64,000 nucleotides of DNA, taken from contig CAMNRO010000010.1 in NCBI GenBank assembly GCA_946553045.1, positions 1-64,000 of the forward strand, in the 5' to 3' direction. The notes beneath the pieces were generated by a model, which was not told where the DNA came from, did not search any database, and worked only from the letters and a program-made list of their open reading frames with translations. The stretch comes from an uncultured Porphyromonadaceae bacterium. GTDB lineage: Bacteria; Bacteroidota; Bacteroidia; Bacteroidales; Muribaculaceae. Both the position numbers and the translations under genes were made by a program. Shown piece after piece: positions 1 through 7,799 of this stretch (positions are counted from its first letter, which is position 1; each line of letters starts with the position of its first letter).

Positions 1-46
1 CTCCGAGTTCTTCAAATTTATTGCCTAATTTTGCACTTGCAGGTAG

Positions 47-403
47 AATCTTTCGGACTTCGAGGGCGAGATACCCGAAAAAGCCACTGTTTATATACAC
101 AACACCGTACCATCGGCTACAGTAGACCTCACAGTTGGCGTTGCTACCAAAAATGCACGCGGCGAACGCAAGAGTATTGTCGCCCGACAGGACGGCCCGA
201 CCACATACTCGGCCATTCTGGTGCCTCAACGACTCGAAAACCGCATGCCGCTCATCGAAGTGGTAATGAACGATGTCTCGTTCCTCTATGAGAGCAAGTT
301 CCTCTTCAAACCCGGCATTCATCATATAGTCAACCTTGTGGTAGATAAGAATCCTGACCAGATAAAGATAGAAATAGGAGGAGAGATTACGAATTGGAAT
401 TGA
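47..403 (+). pseudogene. Fimbrillin-family protein, 3' fragment without a start
   Basis: The reading frame is open for 118 codons and ends in TGA. It resembles the C-terminal half of a Bacteroidales fimbrillin/Mfa-like subunit: beta-strand-rich, with the polar closing residues GGEITNWN typical of the last strand. There is no usable start. In-frame stops lie at 26-28 and 44-46, and the first in-frame ATG (221) is deep inside the fold. No signal peptide, lipobox or N-terminal domain remains. Either the gene is 5'-truncated by rearrangement, it is a silent cassette of a shuffling locus, or the sequence begins at an assembly joint. It lies 16 bp upstream of the next operon, on the same strand. 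The fimbrillin call is by fold pattern and closing sequence only. Confidence 0.6.
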
Positions 404-419
404 TAATCGCTAAAACTTA

Positions 420-1268
420 ATGTCCATAAAAAGAAAGAACCTTAATCTTTTGCTTTTGACCATTAGCGTGCTAATGGGATGGCTGGCTGCCTGTCTTTAC
501 AGGCGGCCGCCTATTATTATAGACCCCGAGCTTACCGTGGCCGACTCAATTACCGCTGCGCCAGATACAATGGTCATGGAGCCACAGCCCGAAAGCGCGC
601 CAAAGGCACCGGCCACAGAATCTGACACAACACCGACAGTCGGCACATCTGAAAAAGAAATGCCCGTGCGGCAACTCGCCACAAGCACTTTCAGCGACAT
701 TGAGCCCCGCAACATTACAGCCGACCACCCTTTCAGAAAGGAAGCGGCCAAACTGCTTAGCGGACGGCTCGAAGAAACCGACTCCGTGAGCCGCCACAAG
801 ATACTGAGCTACTGCGAGCATCTGCGAACATCATATACCACCCGCGACATCGATTTCATACGCCAGGTATTCAGCGACAATGCCCTCATCATAGTCGGCC
901 ATATGGTCAAGACCGGCAATAGACCGGCTGAAGCTATCGGCAACAACAGCAAGGTCATATACCATCTCCGCTCCAAACGCGAATATCTCGATAAACTGTC
1001 GCGTATATTTGATTCCGGCAAACCGATAGACGTCGGCTTCTCCGAATTCAGAATCCTGCGCCACCCTACTATGGAAGGTATATATGGCGTCACACTGCGA
1101 CAGAAATATTCGTGTGGCACATATAGCGACGACGGGTATCTTTTCCTGCTGTGGGATTTCCGAAATATGTCAATGCCTCTGATTCATGTGCGGACATGGC
1201 AGCCATCGCTGTCGGTCAATCCCGACGATGACGACATAATAGGTATCGGCGACTTTAACCTTGAATAA
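420..1268 (+). CDS. Membrane-anchored protein with NTF2-like C-terminal domain
   Basis: 282 aa. Residues 8-27 form one hydrophobic helix after a short basic N-terminus, which predicts a single-pass anchor with the rest outside the cytoplasm. A Pro/Ala/Thr-rich linker follows (about 40-95). The folded domain is about 100-275 and contains stretches such as YCEHLRTSYTTRDIDF and GYLFLLWDFRN, which I associate with Bacteroidales proteins annotated as nuclear transport factor 2 family. No catalytic residues can be named; NTF2-like folds commonly bind small ligands or mediate dimerization. It is first in a five-gene run whose gaps are 8-14 bp, together with a secreted barrel-like protein, a surface LRR lipoprotein and a Ser/Thr kinase. 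The biochemical role is unknown; the family call is from memory of similar sequences. Confidence 0.7.
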   Translation: MSIKRKNLNLLLLTISVLMGWLAACLYRRPPIIIDPELTVADSITAAPDTMVMEPQPESAPKAPATESDTTPTVGTSEKEMPVRQLATSTFSDIEPRNITADHPFRKEAAKLLSGRLEETDSVSRHKILSYCEHLRTSYTTRDIDFIRQVFSDNALIIVGHMVKTGNRPAEAIGNNSKVIYHLRSKREYLDKLSRIFDSGKPIDVGFSEFRILRHPTMEGIYGVTLRQKYSCGTYSDDGYLFLLWDFRNMSMPLIHVRTWQPSLSVNPDDDDIIGIGDFNLE

Positions 1269-1281
1269 CAACTGTATCGCT

Positions 1282-2262
1282 ATGACAAGTCTCAGATTAG
1301 TCCGTCTTCTACTTGTGCCGCTGATAATTTTAGCCGGAGGGGCCGACGCGTTCGCCCAACGGTTCTCTGTGTCCTCCTTTCGGCAACTGCCGAGCGATGT
1401 GTCGGCTTTCATAAATCCTGTGCGCGACCTCAACGACGAAGACTGCGGCCTTCTTAAGATAATAGCGTCCGAGGATTTCGCATTCTCCACGCCACTCGGC
1501 ATTGTGAAACGCGAGGACAAAGTCGGCGAAATATGGCTCTATCTGCCTCGCGGTTCAAAAAAAATAACAATAAAGCACCCCGAATGGGGTGTGATGCGCG
1601 ACTATCGCTTCCCAGAGCGTATAGTCAGCCACATGACTTATGAAATACGCATCGACGAACCAGTGACTCCGGCAATCATAGCGTCTGCGCCCCCTGTAGT
1701 GACAACCGTGACCGACACGCTTGTTGTGACCCGGGTTGACACGCTTGTTGTCGCTCCTGTAAAGAAACAGATTCCGCTCAATGTCTCCCTGCTCGCCACC
1801 GTAGGCTATGGAGGCCGAACAAAGAGCGTTTCGGGAGGCATAATGGCCGTGGCCTTGAAGCGTCACGGAGCATTCGTCCATGTAGCGTCAGACTTTGGCC
1901 GAGCCGGAACTGCGATTGGCGAATGCGACAAAACCGGCAACATCGCCGGCTCGACTCCGTTCTATAGCGGGCGCACACGGCAAAGCACACTGATGGCCAA
2001 TGCCGGACTGGCCCACCGTCTTACCGACAGACTGACGGTCTTTGAAGGCTTAGGCTACTCAGAAACCACTCTATTATGGGAACTGGCACCGTCCGAGGGC
2101 GGCGGATATGTAAAAAACATCCACTACAGCATCCGCGGAATTTCATTCGAGGCCGGCATGATGTTCAACTGCGGTAAAATTGCGGTATCCGCTTCAGTGA
2201 TAAGTATAAGAGGCTCCGAATGGTTTGGAACAATCGGTGTCGGAATAAAATTTGGAAAATAA
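1282..2262 (+). CDS. Secreted PEGA-like / outer-membrane barrel-like protein
   Basis: 326 aa from ATG 1282. This start is preferred over the upstream TTG at 1261 because it opens directly with a signal peptide (about residues 1-25, cleavage near AFA-Q). The N-terminal half (about 26-125) resembles the PEGA-like domain of Bacteroidales envelope proteins: SAFINPVRDLND, then STPLGIVKR, a GEIWLYLPRGSKKITIKHP segment and a closing TYEIRI strand. After a Thr/Val-rich linker (about 130-165), residues 170-326 alternate hydrophobic and polar residues with many Gly and Tyr and end in GVGIKFGK, consistent with a small beta-barrel or sheet in the outer membrane. It is second in the kinase-containing operon, 13 bp after its neighbour. 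No enzymatic motif is visible. Confidence 0.7.
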   Translation: MTSLRLVRLLLVPLIILAGGADAFAQRFSVSSFRQLPSDVSAFINPVRDLNDEDCGLLKIIASEDFAFSTPLGIVKREDKVGEIWLYLPRGSKKITIKHPEWGVMRDYRFPERIVSHMTYEIRIDEPVTPAIIASAPPVVTTVTDTLVVTRVDTLVVAPVKKQIPLNVSLLATVGYGGRTKSVSGGIMAVALKRHGAFVHVASDFGRAGTAIGECDKTGNIAGSTPFYSGRTRQSTLMANAGLAHRLTDRLTVFEGLGYSETTLLWELAPSEGGGYVKNIHYSIRGISFEAGMMFNCGKIAVSASVISIRGSEWFGTIGVGIKFGK

Positions 2263-2276
2263 TCGGTTTGCTTTCT

Positions 2277-3914
2277 ATGACTGACAGTCGCCTTCATATA
2301 ATTCTTTGGATAATCATTTCGGCCTTTTTGACCGGATGCTCCGGTTCCGTGGAGCCGGACAATCTCGAGCCTGTGCTGGAAATGCTCCCGGCACACGATA
2401 TCACAAGAAACGAAGCCATCGTTTCTGCCCGTATCCATAAGCGCGGTACCGGCTCACTGACCTATGCCATATTCAGATATGGAGAAACAGACGGCATCGA
2501 ACTGCAGACGGAGCCGGAAGACCCGACAGCAGATATCGCAACAGTTCGTCTTCGCGACCTTAAGCCCGGCACGTCCTATTTCTGCTGCCTCGAGGCCGGA
2601 ACAGCAACCGCCAGACTAAAATCCAATACAATCACTTTCACAACTCAACCCAACGAAGTGCCTACGGTATCCGCGCCTACAGCCTTGTCGACAGGGCCTC
2701 TCGGTATTATCGTAGAATTCGAAATTATAAGCGACGGCGGCGAGCAGGTGGCAGAAGCAGGTTGCGAAGTGACACAAGTCAACAGCGGAACTGCTTCGAC
2801 TCGTGTATATCTGTCTTCGAACAATATCACCGCAGGCTTACACCGGCTTACAATCGGCGGACTGCAACCTATGACCTCTTATTCCATTACCACCTTTGCA
2901 ACCAACTCGATAGGCGAAGCAAAGGGACAGCCGCTCGAATATACGACATCGAACAGTATCGTTCTCAGAGAGGCCGGCACTCTGGCGGCAGTCTTTGAAG
3001 GAAGCTCCAGGATAGAAATTCCGCGCCTGTCGATTGCCGGACCCGTCAACGGCGACGACTTTCGATTCCTCCGGAGTCTGCTTGGCGTACCCGGAGAAGA
3101 ATCGGCAATAGAAAGTGCCGTGAACGAACTCGACCTTACAGACGCACATATCGTAGAAGGAGGAAACAGCTACGACGGCAGCCGCTTTACAGAAACCGAT
3201 ATAGTATCTACCGGATTGTTCGCCGACTGTGTGGCTCTGCGCGAAATTATACTTCCTGCTACAGCAACAGTCCTGGCCCGAAACGCCTTTGCCCGTTGCA
3301 GTTCTCTTGAAAAGCTGACAGTTTCGGCCTCTGTCGCATCTGTCTATCCGTCTGAGGAATGTATTTCACTCAGTAATATCATGGTATCAGCTGCCAACAG
3401 CAATTTTGCAGCCATAGATGGAGTGTTATACAACCAGAACATTACACAAATAATATGGTTTCCTCTCGGAAAAACCGGCCAATACACCCTGCCATCTACT
3501 GTTACTTCCATAGGCGAGAATGCTTTCTACGGCACAGGAATCACAAGCCTCGAAATACCGCCGTCTGTAACATCTATCAGCCGTGGAGCCTTTGCAGGCT
3601 CGGCACTCCGAGAAATATCATTTCCCGACAATATCGCAAACATCGCCGAAAGCCTGTTCCAGAACTGCAAGGCTCTTTCTGTGGTCCGTTTAGGAAAAGG
3701 CACCCGATATATCGGCAACTATGCCTTCGACGGCACTTCTGTCAAAGATATTTATGTAGGAGCGACAACGCCGCCGTTCGTTGCCGACCAGGCTTTCGTC
3801 AACGGCAGCTCGACTATCTGCGGCAGCTGCACTCTGCACGTTCCCGCCGGATGCCGGCAAACATACAGACTACACAAGAAATGGGGTCTCTTCGACAGAA
3901 TCGAAGAATTTTAA
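2277..3914 (+). CDS. Surface lipoprotein with FN3-like and BspA-type leucine-rich repeats
   Basis: 545 aa from ATG 2277, chosen because it gives a clean lipoprotein signal (hydrophobic 6-18, lipobox FLTGC with Cys21). Upstream in-frame starts lie inside the preceding gene. Residues about 30-115 and 118-220 look like two fibronectin-III-type domains (GTSYFCCLEAGTA and TSYSITTFATNSIGEA strands). Residues about 285-520 are BspA/LRR_5 repeats with the usual pattern of NAFxxCSSLEKLTV and AFAGSALREISFP units. The chain ends in a beta-rich cap. BspA-type repeats usually mediate binding to host or bacterial surfaces. It sits between the barrel-like protein and the Ser/Thr kinase with gaps of 14 and 9 bp, so co-expression is very likely. 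The ligand is unknown. Confidence 0.85.
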   Translation: MTDSRLHIILWIIISAFLTGCSGSVEPDNLEPVLEMLPAHDITRNEAIVSARIHKRGTGSLTYAIFRYGETDGIELQTEPEDPTADIATVRLRDLKPGTSYFCCLEAGTATARLKSNTITFTTQPNEVPTVSAPTALSTGPLGIIVEFEIISDGGEQVAEAGCEVTQVNSGTASTRVYLSSNNITAGLHRLTIGGLQPMTSYSITTFATNSIGEAKGQPLEYTTSNSIVLREAGTLAAVFEGSSRIEIPRLSIAGPVNGDDFRFLRSLLGVPGEESAIESAVNELDLTDAHIVEGGNSYDGSRFTETDIVSTGLFADCVALREIILPATATVLARNAFARCSSLEKLTVSASVASVYPSEECISLSNIMVSAANSNFAAIDGVLYNQNITQIIWFPLGKTGQYTLPSTVTSIGENAFYGTGITSLEIPPSVTSISRGAFAGSALREISFPDNIANIAESLFQNCKALSVVRLGKGTRYIGNYAFDGTSVKDIYVGATTPPFVADQAFVNGSSTICGSCTLHVPAGCRQTYRLHKKWGLFDRIEEF

Positions 3915-3923
3915 AATAAAACC

Positions 3924-4847
3924 ATGATGGATAAGCGCATCAACCATACGACAGGACAGCATCTCCCGGATGATACCGATTCGGAGTACCTCGGCACAAA
4001 TGATTCTGCGCCGCAACTGGATTTCGGCGAACTGTTCTCCAATGAATTCACCAATATCCAGCCTATCTATAGCTCGGCAAACGGGCCCATAGAAATATAT
4101 ACCGCCACCCGCTACGGCAAGCGCTTTATTCTAAAGGGCCTTAAGGAGCAGTACCGCAATGACCCAATCTATACCATGAATCTTGCCAAGGAGTTTGAGA
4201 TAGGAATTCAGCTCGACCATCCGAACATCAGACGAACCATAGGCCTCGAGAGTGTCGAAGGCATAGGCAAGGTCATCGTTCTCGAATATGTTGACGGGTG
4301 CATGCTCGAAAGTTTGCTTGACCCGAAATATATGACATCTTCAGCGGCCAGATCTATCGCGACACAGATAGCCGACGCGTTGCGGTATATACACAGCAAG
4401 CAGATTTTTCACCGCGACCTCAAGCCTTCCAATATCCTTGTATCACACCAGGGCGGAGTCGTAAAAATCATAGATTTCAATCTTTCCGACAGCAACGATT
4501 TCATAATCCTCAAGAATCCTGCCGGCTCAAGAAAATACATGGCCCCGGAACAACTCAATCCCAGTGCCCGCCCGACAGCTGTGGCCGACATATATTCATT
4601 CGGAGTGGTTATCGACGAACTTGCCGCAGTATGCGGCGACGAACCATTGTCGCAACTCGCTGAAAAATGCCGGAAACAGAACCCCAGAAAGCGCCCGCAG
4701 TCCGTATCAATGCTCCGCATACCCGGGTCGTCGGTTACTGATAGGTTTTCGCGTTTTCTGTCGTCGAAAACGCTGACCGGCATATTGCTCTGCGTCATCG
4801 CAGCTCTTGCGGCAATTATCACATTCTTATTGATTGCAAACGCCTGA
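3924..4847 (+). CDS. Tail-anchored eukaryote-like Ser/Thr protein kinase (DFN variant)
   Basis: 307 aa. A Hanks-type kinase domain spans about 45-265: candidate VAIK-equivalent Lys71 (RFILKGLK), alpha-C Glu near 90, catalytic loop HRDLKPSN at 163-170, APE at 207-209. The metal-binding motif is DFN (184-186) rather than DFG, and the glycine-rich loop is degenerate (SSANGPIEIYTA). Asp, Lys and HRD are present, so activity is plausible but not assured. The activation segment is short. Residues 284-304 form one membrane helix at the extreme C-terminus, with no PASTA or other extracellular sensor, so the kinase should face the cytoplasm as a tail-anchored protein. Fourth of five genes in an operon of surface proteins; the next gene starts 8 bp downstream. 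Confidence 0.9.
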   Translation: MMDKRINHTTGQHLPDDTDSEYLGTNDSAPQLDFGELFSNEFTNIQPIYSSANGPIEIYTATRYGKRFILKGLKEQYRNDPIYTMNLAKEFEIGIQLDHPNIRRTIGLESVEGIGKVIVLEYVDGCMLESLLDPKYMTSSAARSIATQIADALRYIHSKQIFHRDLKPSNILVSHQGGVVKIIDFNLSDSNDFIILKNPAGSRKYMAPEQLNPSARPTAVADIYSFGVVIDELAAVCGDEPLSQLAEKCRKQNPRKRPQSVSMLRIPGSSVTDRFSRFLSSKTLTGILLCVIAALAAIITFLLIANA

Positions 4848-4854
4848 AACACTT

Positions 4855-5436
4855 ATGGAAAAGAATATCGCTTTAGAAGCACTTGTCGAAATCACAAACA
4901 ATAATCTTGGATATGTTCCAGCCACTCCTACAGAATTCAACGAGCTGAGTCTTATGATAAAGAAGAAAACCGGACGCTCGCTCAGTCTGTCGTCAATAAA
5001 GCGCATATGGGGATATGTCGAATACAAAGGTTTTCCCTCTGTCACCACACTTAACACACTCGCACAGTACAATGAATTCAAAGACTGGGAATCATTTATG
5101 GTAAACAGGAACGCCATAAGCGCCGACGACTCGTCTTTCATCGAAAAAACGCTGATTAATACTGACACACTCCAAACCGGCGACAGGATATTGCTCGGCT
5201 GGGGCAATGGTAAATCATGCGAAATAGAATGTGTGGCATACATGAGATTTCGTGTCAACGATTCGAAAAACATCAAACTGCAGCCTGGCGACACCTTCAC
5301 TCTGCATGCCGTATGCGTGAGCCATCCCATATATGTAAGTGATATCGAACGTGGCGACATTCATATTCCGGCTTATATCGGCGCAAAAAAAGGCGGAATC
5401 ACCACTATATCCATTCTACCGGCACGAAAGGCTTGA
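4855..5436 (+). CDS. Putative regulatory protein, kinase-operon partner
   Basis: 193 aa from ATG 4855; the in-frame TTG at 4834 lies inside the kinase gene and is less likely. The N-terminal third (about 10-80) has a helical pattern I recognise from many small Bacteroidales proteins: EFNELSLMIKKKTGRSLS, SSIKRIWGYVEY, LNTLAQYNEFKDWESF. It resembles a winged-helix or HTH-like module, though DNA binding is inferred, not shown. The C-terminal part (about 100-193) is beta-rich (TGDRILLGW, IKLQPGDTFTLHAVCV) and could be a ligand or protein-binding sheet. No signal peptide, so cytoplasmic, the same side as the kinase catalytic domain. Being last in the operon, directly after the kinase, makes it a candidate substrate or transcriptional output. 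Confidence 0.6.
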   Translation: MEKNIALEALVEITNNNLGYVPATPTEFNELSLMIKKKTGRSLSLSSIKRIWGYVEYKGFPSVTTLNTLAQYNEFKDWESFMVNRNAISADDSSFIEKTLINTDTLQTGDRILLGWGNGKSCEIECVAYMRFRVNDSKNIKLQPGDTFTLHAVCVSHPIYVSDIERGDIHIPAYIGAKKGGITTISILPARKA

Positions 5437-5618: not shown

Positions 5619-5858
5619 ATGGAAGACATCGAAGACTTTTTTATATCGATTATCAAGCAATCGCATAGTGCCGATCTTGCTGAAGCTGAATTTAAAAGAT
5701 GCCTCGTGGACGACGAAGAACTCAGGCAGCGATACAAGGAATACTGCCGGGAAATAGGCACTTCCGAACGAAACGGCTTCATGGATTTCTGCGACGAATA
5801 TATGGCCGGACAGGATGAAGTCTGGAACACACTAAGTGACTTCGACAATCAGGAATGA
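5619..5858 (+). CDS. Small acidic protein of unknown function
   Basis: 79 aa from ATG 5619. Longer in-frame starts back to 5544 would run through the putative promoter and give an unlikely N-terminus. The protein is mostly predicted helix and strongly acidic (MEDIEDFF at the start, DDEELRQRYKEYCREIG in the middle, a final DFDNQE), with no signal peptide or membrane segment. The last codons overlap the agmatine deiminase start (ATGA-type overlap, 5855-5858), so the two are translationally coupled. I do not recognise a family. Its position suggests a role with the polyamine enzymes, but it may simply be the first gene of a general operon. Confidence 0.65.
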   Translation: MEDIEDFFISIIKQSHSADLAEAEFKRCLVDDEELRQRYKEYCREIGTSERNGFMDFCDEYMAGQDEVWNTLSDFDNQE

Positions 5859-6928
5859 ACAGATTCGAAACACCTCAAGATTTCCGTCTGCCAGCCGAAT
5901 GGGAGCCGGCAGACGCCATTCTGATGGCATGGCCGAATGAAAACACCGACTGGGCCTATATGCTCGATGATGTCAGAAAGACTTATATCGACATCATAAC
6001 GGCTATCTCAGAACGCGCAAAAGTCGTTCTTATAGGCCCGGAGCTGCCCTCAACGACGGTTTTCCCGCCCGAATGCCGACGCGAAAACCTCATTTTGGTG
6101 CAAATGCCAATCAACGACACATGGACTCGTGATTACGGCCCTATAATAGTGACAAACCAGGACGGAACGCAAATCCTTCAGGATTTCATATTCAACGGCT
6201 GGGGCATGAAATTTGCCGCCAACAACGACAATCTCGCTGCCGGCCGCCTTCATTCGTCAGGCCTGCTGACATGCCGGTATAGTGGCCCGGCTCAGATAGT
6301 GCTTGAAGGCGGTTCTATCGAAAGCGACGGCAAAGGCACGATTCTCACAACCGAACACTGCCTGCTCGCTCCAAACCGCAACGACTGCCTCGACCAGTAT
6401 GAAATCGAGTCGAAACTTCTCGAGCAGCTTGGCGCAAAAAAAATTCTCTGGCTGAAACACGGTCAGCTCGCCGGTGACGACACCGACGGCCATATCGACA
6501 CTCTTGCCAGAATAGCGCCTCCGGGAGACATCATTATATATACTGGCTGCGACAATCCCGACGATGAGCATTTTGCCGAACTCGAAGCCATGCGCGACGA
6601 ACTAAGCAAGATGACCAATGCAATTGGCGCACCATTCCATCTAATAGAGCTTCCCCTGCCCGACCCTATTTATGACCCGGAAGACGGAACACGCCTTCCG
6701 GCGACATACGCCAACTATCTCATTGTTAACGGAGCAGTGCTAATGCCGACCTACGGACAGCCTCGAAAGGACAAACTGGCCGCAATGATTCTTGAATCCG
6801 CAATGCCCGAATACGAAATAATACCCATTGACTGCCGCAGCCTTATACGGCAGCACGGCTCGCTTCACTGTGCGACCATGCAACTGCCATTAGGTGTATT
6901 GTCAGACAACTATGAAACGAACAATTAA
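5855..6928 (+). CDS. aguA: Agmatine deiminase
   Basis: 357 aa, the usual size. It hydrolyses agmatine to N-carbamoylputrescine and ammonia in the cytoplasm. Guanidino-modifying fold features: WPNENTDW near 26-33, NDTWTRDYGP at 87-96, EGGSIESDGKGTILTTEHCLL in the middle, the TDGHID segment with a catalytic His, and the nucleophile Cys339 in HGSLHCATMQLP. Family members often read GGGNIHC at this last site, so the context differs slightly but the Cys is in place. Its end overlaps the next gene, N-carbamoylputrescine amidase, by 17 bp; together they form the two-step agmatine route to putrescine. Some Bacteroidales members are annotated peptidylarginine deiminase; the neighbour argues for agmatine. 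Confidence 0.93.
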   Translation: MNRFETPQDFRLPAEWEPADAILMAWPNENTDWAYMLDDVRKTYIDIITAISERAKVVLIGPELPSTTVFPPECRRENLILVQMPINDTWTRDYGPIIVTNQDGTQILQDFIFNGWGMKFAANNDNLAAGRLHSSGLLTCRYSGPAQIVLEGGSIESDGKGTILTTEHCLLAPNRNDCLDQYEIESKLLEQLGAKKILWLKHGQLAGDDTDGHIDTLARIAPPGDIIIYTGCDNPDDEHFAELEAMRDELSKMTNAIGAPFHLIELPLPDPIYDPEDGTRLPATYANYLIVNGAVLMPTYGQPRKDKLAAMILESAMPEYEIIPIDCRSLIRQHGSLHCATMQLPLGVLSDNYETNN

Positions 6929-7799
6929 AACCGCAATCATACAACAGACGGCCAGCTCAGATGCGGCCGAAAACCGCCGGAAAATAGCCGAAAAAGTACA
7001 CGCCCTCGCCAAAGAAGGCGCTCAGCTTATCGTCAACCAGGAACTGCACGATTCGCTCTATTTCTGTCAGACCGAGAATGTGGATTTATGCTCTCTGGCT
7101 GTCGAAATTCCCGGCGAGGCTACTGATTTTTATTCTGCACTTGCCCGCGAAACCGGCACCGTCATCGTCACATCACTGTTCGAACGACGCGCCCCGGGCC
7201 TATACCACAATACCGCCGTTGTATTCGACGCCGACGGCTCCATCGCTGGCAAATATCGCAAAATGCATATACCCGATGATCCGGCCTATTACGAAAAATT
7301 CTACTTTACACCCGGCGACCTCGGTTTTGAGCCTGTCGACACCTCGTTGGGACGAATAGGAGTACTCGTATGTTGGGATCAATGGTACCCGGAGGCTGCC
7401 CGTATGATGGCTCTGGCCGGTGCCGAACTGCTTGTCTACCCTACGGCAATCGGCTGGGAAAGCACCGACACCGACGACGAAAAAGAGCGTCAGCGCGAAG
7501 CCTGGATAACAATCCAGCGTGCCCACGCCATTGCCAACGGCATTCCCGTTGTCGCAGTAAACCGCGTCGGACACGAACCTGATCCCTCTGGCGCCACCAA
7601 TGGTATCCTCTTCTGGGGCTCAAGTTTCGTAGCCGGCCCTCAGGGCGAATTCCTGCACAGGTCGCCGCACGATGCCGAAGACACTGCCATTGTCGAAATC
7701 GACATGCAGCGCTCCGAACAAGTGCGCCGATGGTGGCCATTCCTTCGCGACCGAAGAATTGACGCATACGGAGATCTTACTCTACGCTATCGCAAATAA
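6912..7799 (+). CDS. aguB: N-carbamoylputrescine amidase
   Basis: 295 aa from ATG 6912. Nitrilase-superfamily hydrolase that cleaves N-carbamoylputrescine to putrescine, CO2 and ammonia. The Glu-Lys-Cys triad is visible: Glu44 (NQELHDSLYF), Lys117 (KYRKMHIPDDP) and Cys154 (LVCWDQWYPEAARMM). The segment AHAIANGIPVVAVNRVG and the late WGSSFVAGPQGE are typical of the plant and bacterial AguB group. The start lies inside the aguA end, so the pair is translationally coupled. A strong bidirectional hairpin follows directly. Confidence 0.95.
   Translation: MKRTIKTAIIQQTASSDAAENRRKIAEKVHALAKEGAQLIVNQELHDSLYFCQTENVDLCSLAVEIPGEATDFYSALARETGTVIVTSLFERRAPGLYHNTAVVFDADGSIAGKYRKMHIPDDPAYYEKFYFTPGDLGFEPVDTSLGRIGVLVCWDQWYPEAARMMALAGAELLVYPTAIGWESTDTDDEKERQREAWITIQRAHAIANGIPVVAVNRVGHEPDPSGATNGILFWGSSFVAGPQGEFLHRSPHDAEDTAIVEIDMQRSEQVRRWWPFLRDRRIDAYGDLTLRYRK

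Follow-up and report, generated by a model that had tools for sequence, protein, structure and literature searches.

The window analysed here is a stretch of 64,000 nucleotides from an uncultured Porphyromonadaceae bacterium, which begins at base 1 of contig C10 in a genome of 2.93 Mb and 85 contigs. Five plus-strand genes at 420-5436, here named g1 to g5, are the rear part of a predicted eight-gene operon, which is common to many gut Bacteroidales and is probably transcribed as one unit. The gene order in unbroken relatives is fimbrillin (~300 amino acids, aa), a large protein (~1180 aa), fimbrillin (~296 aa), g1, g2, g3, g4, and g5, and a direct DNA repeat lies ahead of the operon. We propose that the kinase encoded by g4 and its partner g5 may control the operon through this repeat. 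The features at the beginning of the window are as follows (the prefixes L, C, and G mark loci, contigs, and genomes).

1..54, no strand: end of a repeated element; the contig break is within mfa3
55..403, plus strand: 3' part of mfa3, the third fimbrillin gene of the operon (Mfa_like_1, PF13149, 7.7e-19)
420..1268, plus strand: g1, membrane-anchored protein with a C-terminal NTF2-like domain (weak Cds6_C match; hydrophobic at residues 8-26)
1282..2262, plus strand: g2, probably secreted protein with a conserved N-domain of ~110 aa and a C-terminal region (from sequence comparison)
2277..3914, plus strand: g3, lipoprotein with FN3-like domain and BspA-type leucine-rich repeats, LRR (domain search; signal sequence and Cys by eye)
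3924..4847, plus strand: g4, Hanks-type Ser/Thr kinase with a C-terminal membrane anchor (Pkinase match; invariant residues)
4855..5436, plus strand: g5, putative DNA-binding partner of the kinase (helix-rich N-terminal and beta-rich C-terminal parts, judged by eye)

The intergenic gaps are 13 base pairs (bp) for g1/g2, 14 bp for g2/g3, 9 bp for g3/g4, and 7 bp for g4/g5, and the next ATG taken after g5 lies 182 bp further on; the ATG starts of g2, g3, and g5 are our choice, and the list of open reading frames has earlier starts. A preliminary description of this DNA had the five plus-strand genes right, with gaps of 8-14 bp that are measured here as 7-14 bp, and the fimbrillin piece that it placed in front of g1 is confirmed by the Mfa_like_1 match. 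Its grouping of the five genes into one system is also supported in part; it missed the conserved repeat and the upstream genes on another contig, including the large fimbrillin-LRR-M64-like protein. The mfa3 gene is split over two contigs, with fimbrillin profile positions 1-138 on C20 and 136-246 on C10, and the piece in the window is incomplete because the window starts at the end of C10. The front of the operon in this genome, namely the 5' part of mfa3 and the two upstream genes, is located on C20.

The large protein combines several domains. At locus L082, it matches Mfa_like_1 (1.1e-54), BspA-type LRR (1.8e-64), BACON (1.1e-6), and Peptidase_M64 (3e-15), and Mfa_like_1 is found in all three upstream proteins of this locus (7.3e-63, 1.1e-54, and 2.5e-59, respectively). 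Mfa/FimA-type lipoprotein subunits are encoded together, as in a fimbrillin operon; the window genome's own copies are on C20 and C10, with lipoprotein signals recognized by eye. When 18 copies of the large protein were aligned, the mean column identity was 77%. At three loci (L273, L291, and L295), the large protein is present in two copies within one operon.

The Pfam cut-off of Peptidase_M64 (26 bits) is exceeded by both the L082 copy (56.6 bits) and the copy of the window's genome (43.6 bits), and PDB matches of the domain include 3p1v, 4df9, and IgA protease chains. The motif HExxxH, mostly as HEAGGH, is present in 78 of 78 full copies from 79 loci, four truncated copies being excluded. 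Two order-wide searches yielded 60 M64 loci, which include the window genome's own copy and count some genome places twice; 52 of these have HExxH and eight have HExxxH, and these eight all rank in the top nine matches to the domain, where the remaining one (L327) has HExxH. HExxGH is the working motif of the M49 dipeptidyl peptidase III, and peptidase activity of the domain in the large protein is plausible. According to a previous study, M64 clusters retain HEXXHXXXGXXD with few exceptions (PMC12402451). The large protein lacks this motif, and the domain is labelled M64-like only, because HExxxH takes its place.

Close homologues of g1 (E up to 2.3e-75) were found in 25 of 397 family genomes, and g1-g5 are in the same order at 19 of these 25 loci, two of which are incomplete in part: L084 has its kinase gene split by a transposase-like open reading frame, and at L174 a contig end cuts g1. 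Of the other six loci, five have a gene that is cut or uncalled, and at L178 g5 precedes g4. A query of the genome collection with the large protein gave 274 relatives, and the 79 loci kept are from the best 80 of these, picked by likeness to the copies in the window's family. By their record titles, these loci come from Muribaculaceae, Prevotella, Xylanibacter rarus (L273), Marseilla massiliensis (L259), Bacteroides, Phocaeicola, Mediterranea, Butyricimonas synergistica (L293), Alistipes, and others. For 52 loci, the sequence extends 8.5 kb or more beyond the large protein. All 52 have mfa3, 45 have g1, g2, and g3 together (seven lack them), 44 have g4, 43 have g5, and 43 have both g4 and g5. 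The pair occurs in four arrangements, g5+g4+ (15 loci), g4+g5+ (14), g4-g5- (12), and g5+g4- (2), where the signs give the strands; that it is kept through these rearrangements argues for function. The two sets of 25 and 52 loci overlap in genomes (the kinases of L181 and L247, for example, are identical, and L252 corresponds to a contig of G009), and their counts are not independent, because several loci come from the same genomes. No such kinase was found within 10 kb of 11 other fimbrillin loci (one below the Pfam cut-off) in four of the six carrier genomes, G705 and G627 being left out, and the idea that the kinase is merely common beside fimbrillin genes is not supported by these 11 loci. 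The preliminary description had proposed one surface system tied to a kinase, and this is borne out by a co-occurrence check across Bacteroidales, in which the homologues are adjacent and co-conserved.

The gene g4 encodes a protein that matches Pkinase (7.4e-35) and possesses the catalytic Lys, Glu, HRD Asp, Asn, and DFG Asp of Hanks-type kinases. Residues K71, E90, H163, D165, K167, N170, D184, and E209 are invariant across 42 kinases, and the Gly of DFG is Asn in the window's g4 and often Ser elsewhere. A single strong hydrophobic segment lies at residues 287-305 with two residues after it, in agreement with the tail-anchored Hanks kinase described previously. In all 33 unlinked kinases, 96-370 residues follow a predicted membrane segment, and the nine operon kinases of the window's family in the same alignment have 2-30 residues after it. 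In a wider set of operon kinases, the segment is present in 47 of 50, and the tail has a median of 34 and a maximum of 125 residues; tails are short in the window's family (a few of 31-36) and mostly ~25-40 in Prevotella-type loci. An operon kinase without its own outer domain suggests that an operon envelope protein, perhaps g1, took over sensing. In a kinase tree of 81 rows, which contains 23 of the 33 unlinked kinases (10 were removed by a motif filter), 55 operon kinases fall on one side (support 89/55), and the tree follows host families. One paired kinase (L081, 7682-9301, minus strand) has a BspA-type LRR outer part, which joins kinase and LRR in one protein. This fusion is real as a candidate link between g3 and g4, and it is given little weight because LRR_5 is found in only 2 of 42 kinases and these genomes have many repeats of this kind.

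The preliminary description called g5 a putative DNA-binding protein, and g5 accompanies the kinase outside the operon as well. In 119 family genomes, related kinases outside the operon have a g5 homologue within 10 kb in 36 of 38 cases, against 0.58 expected, an expectation that, like the one given below for repeats near g5, assumes uniform placement and ~2.5 Mb per genome. Of 257 genomes of the phylum, 21 have a match to the g5 profile, nearly always to the N-terminal ~90 residues. This N-domain stands ahead of a membrane segment and an outer domain at L358, L360, and L363 (judged by eye), and ahead of NTPase-like regions with weak STAND/NACHT matches below the cut-off at L359 and L361.

Ahead of the operon, the direct repeat TGAACY-N4-TGAAC is present in 14 of 14 aligned upstream regions, which are those that passed the filters for the fimbrillin start. 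Counted from the estimated gene start, the exact repeat is found in 48 of 67 regions of the named collection; of the loci that extend 8.5 kb downstream, it is present at 34 of 40 with g1 and 0 of 7 without g1, and the background is 6 of 474 random 500-bp stretches of the same loci. With stop-to-stop frames as gene starts, the counts were 47 of 69 regions, 33 of 42 with g1, and 0 of 7 without; this count mis-scored L252, the site of which is contained in the whole-genome listing, and is superseded by the count from estimated starts. A TAnnTTTG box, which we take to be a Bacteroidales-type promoter-like motif, follows the exact repeat at 23-25 bp in 27 of 46 cases, at 33-34 bp in 11, and at other distances in five, with no box in three, and the two preferred distances differ by one helical turn. 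The genome of the window has a single TGAACYNNNNTGAACY, at C20:5289-5304, which lies upstream of the first fimbrillin gene. All five operon-bearing genomes among the 119 have the repeat at the operon (six sites), and 8 of 106 non-operon sites have one of the 79 g5 homologues within 2 kb, where 0.12 would be expected under the same assumptions. At some distant g5 genes, the boxes read TGGACC/T or TGACCC and keep their spacing, and a perfect TGNNCY-N4-TGNNC is present in 8 of 33 g5 upstream regions; the corresponding figures are 10 of 447 for the upstream regions of the other genes at these loci and 16 of 2100 for random stretches. These repeats beside unlinked and distant g5 genes are the best evidence for DNA binding by g5, whose specificity would drift with the family, and suggest that g5 binds DNA at the repeat.

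The remaining products of the operon are predicted envelope proteins. The preliminary description called g1 NTF2-like, and the label is retained with a weak match: the window copy reaches 20.1 bits for Cds6_C (8e-4) against a cut-off of 27, and the g1 of L277 (Bacteroides), which also has N-terminal WG repeats (WG_beta_rep, 8.5e-35), is at the cut-off with 27 bits. PDB profile searches gave no convincing match for g1 or g5. The label of g2 as PEGA-like or barrel in the preliminary description was not confirmed by family searches, in which g2 matched no Pfam family, PEGA included; g2 also gave no convincing PDB profile match. The ~110 aa N-domain of g2 recurs near the start of other Bacteroidales proteins, mostly of 500-850 aa, and heads a PEGA protein at L200. 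For g3, proposed as an FN3-LRR lipoprotein, the LRR part is clear (LRR_5, 8e-32), while fn3 falls just short of the cut-off (22.9 of 25 bits). Domains of the g1 and g2 types are also found beside Hanks kinases (L184, L187, and L190), PP2C (L184), and Tubulin_2 proteins (L188, L189, and L195); this recurrence, seen at 6 of 18 inspected loci, marks another envelope signalling locus of the family. The FHA and caspase-like labels at L184, like the transposase label at L084, were given by eye.

The first 54/55 bases of the window recur identically at the end of C80 and, in C84, 94 bp before the contig end, and therefore a multi-copy element is probably inserted in mfa3 in the window's strain; the 54-bp junction repeat is probably the end of a mobile element. 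The C80 copy sits in an open reading frame (L355). A truly broken mfa3 was considered and rejected, the gene being cut by a contig end that carries the repeat. The transposase-like frame in the operon kinase gene of G092 is at L084 12126-12899 (minus strand), and in G113 the operon is split within g3 over two contigs (L085 and L177). Interruptions of the operon may be frequent. Downstream, a 79 aa acidic protein with no Pfam or NCBIfam match is encoded at 5619-5858, 3' of the operon, and 5855-7799 presumably encodes agmatine deiminase- and carbamoylputrescine amidase-like proteins; the genes at 5619-7799 are outside the operon.

The reading that we consider on the whole probable, though far from certain, is that g4 signals to g5, and g5 controls the surface fimbrillin-peptidase operon through the repeat. 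The operon would build a surface assembly from two small fimbrillins and the large fimbrillin-BspA-type-BACON-M64-like lipoprotein, with the three envelope proteins g1 (NTF2-like), g2, and g3 (FN3-LRR) assisting the assembly, and g4 and g5 would be its own regulatory pair. The kinase may phosphorylate or otherwise activate g5, which would then bind the tandem TGAACC boxes, spaced by one turn of DNA and located directly ahead of the promoter, and control transcription, presumably by activation rather than repression. As the operon kinase is without part or all of an extracytoplasmic tail, an envelope protein, with g1 as first choice, may supply the sensing. The preliminary description had the signal run from the surface to the kinase, which may be so; a kinase that controls the production of surface proteins is preferred here, though the evidence allows both equally.

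The conservation counts refute scattered homologues, or ordinary genes that are adjacent by chance in a single strain, since the order is kept at 19 of 25 family loci and the content at 43-45 of 52 loci across the order. That several parts belong to families found singly in many of these genomes speaks for this explanation, which has scarcely any probability left. A kinase acting after translation could phosphorylate g1, g2, or other proteins to steer the assembly or display of the fimbrillin-peptidase, with g5 as an adaptor and not a transcription factor. In family searches, g5 matched no curated family and no helix-turn-helix or other DNA-binding family, so that its "DNA-binding" label in the preliminary description found no support there; this fits an adaptor, as do the NTPase-like regions preceded by the g5 N-domain (L359 and L361), where adaptor roles are possible, and the recurrence of g1- and g2-type domains beside other kinases. 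However, the repeat accompanies g5 genes both inside and outside the operon, which an adaptor leaves unexplained, and we regard this explanation as unlikely.

It is somewhat less likely still that some other, unlinked regulator binds the repeat and that g4-g5 is a self-contained pair captured by the operon and merely co-transcribed. Several observations that speak for it also weigh against control by g5: L276, L277, and L280 combine g1-g3 with the exact repeat and have no g4 or g5 nearby; L303 and L314 have g4 and g5 with neither g1 nor the repeat; and the repeat tracks g1-g3 better than g5, as the exact site is found at 30 of 40 loci with g5 and 3 of 9 without (5 of 9 when one mismatch is allowed; stop-to-stop count). 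Yet the pair stays at the operon in four arrangements, the repeat lies beside unlinked g5 genes far above chance, and variant repeats occur at some distant g5 genes. Other points count against control of the operon by g4 and g5 through the repeat. There is no genome-wide enrichment of the repeat, with 112 listed sites in the 119 genomes against ~101 in a reversed control, and most of the 106 non-operon sites are background, because the control gives about as many; the repeat is near only 7 of 79 g5 loci. Six of 40 g1-bearing loci are without the exact repeat, of which L259, L285, and L305 have a version with one mismatch, and L285 has g4 without g5. The grouping of the 55 operon kinases is modestly supported, with L303, L312, and L314 apart, and Bacteroides-type operon kinases mostly keep tails of 32-125 aa, which weakens the generality of a sensor supplied in trans. 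Finally, the operon of the window's own strain is interrupted in mfa3 by the junction repeat.

Fimbrillin operons, M64 peptidases, and Hanks kinases are already known. The type V fimbriae of Porphyromonas gingivalis (mfa1-5 and fimA-E) likewise have several fimbrillin-type proteins per operon together with ancillary tip proteins, and we know of no kinase in the mfa or fim clusters. Unlike these fimbriae, the large subunit here has LRR, BACON, and M64-like domains, and the operon includes a kinase and g5; the Mfa5 tip protein of P. gingivalis bears a von Willebrand domain (PMC7835359). The Peptidase_M64 match is shared with ThomasA of Thomasclavelia ramosa and BF3526 of Bacteroides fragilis (PMC12402451), whereas the large protein has HExxxH instead of HExxH and bears the domain on a fimbrillin-LRR scaffold. 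An M64 "IgA degrading peptidase" was noted in 11 of 30 S24-7 genomes (PMC4936053), which belong to Muribaculaceae, the same family as most relatives of the window; this set may include the large protein of the operon, and the available portion of that description has no operon, kinase, or fimbrillin fusion.

Like membrane Hanks kinases of the PknB/PASTA type, g4 has a cytoplasmic kinase and one membrane segment; it differs in being paired with g5 and a DNA repeat, and its two-residue tail leaves no room for PASTA (NCBIfam PknB_PASTA, 105 of 450 bits). ToxR-like proteins are transmembrane one-component regulators, which the g5 N-domain recalls where it precedes a membrane segment and an outer domain elsewhere in the phylum. 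In the operon, by contrast, the protein on the DNA side is soluble, and a separate kinase provides the membrane part. Text searches gave no recognizable description of the operon, g5, or the repeat in titles and abstract starts, and the g4-g5-repeat circuit has a fair chance of being a new class of signalling pair. In its fullest form, for which we would put the chances a little short of even, this proposal holds that g4-g5 represents a so far unnamed class, in which a membrane receptor Ser/Thr kinase has a DNA-binding partner dedicated to it and a recognizable site of two TGRACC-type boxes, separated by one turn of DNA, at preferred promoter distances. Such pairs would be repeatedly used in Bacteroidales for surface-protein control, and the operon kinase would have lost its outer domain and would sense via the operon's envelope proteins, with a surface fimbrillin bearing an HExxxH M64-like peptidase as the output.

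S24-7 members have been found in both IgA-coated and uncoated fractions (PMC4936053). What the operon yields in these gut bacteria is a conserved surface protein that has a peptidase-like domain. To our knowledge, few transcriptional targets of Hanks kinases have been described for gut Bacteroidales, and here a kinase, its partner, a DNA site, and a target operon can be named together, all of them open to ordinary gene deletions and binding assays. If the proposed circuit is true, unlinked kinase-g5 pairs would become predictable regulators, and the g4-g5 class would be a Ser/Thr counterpart of two-component systems.

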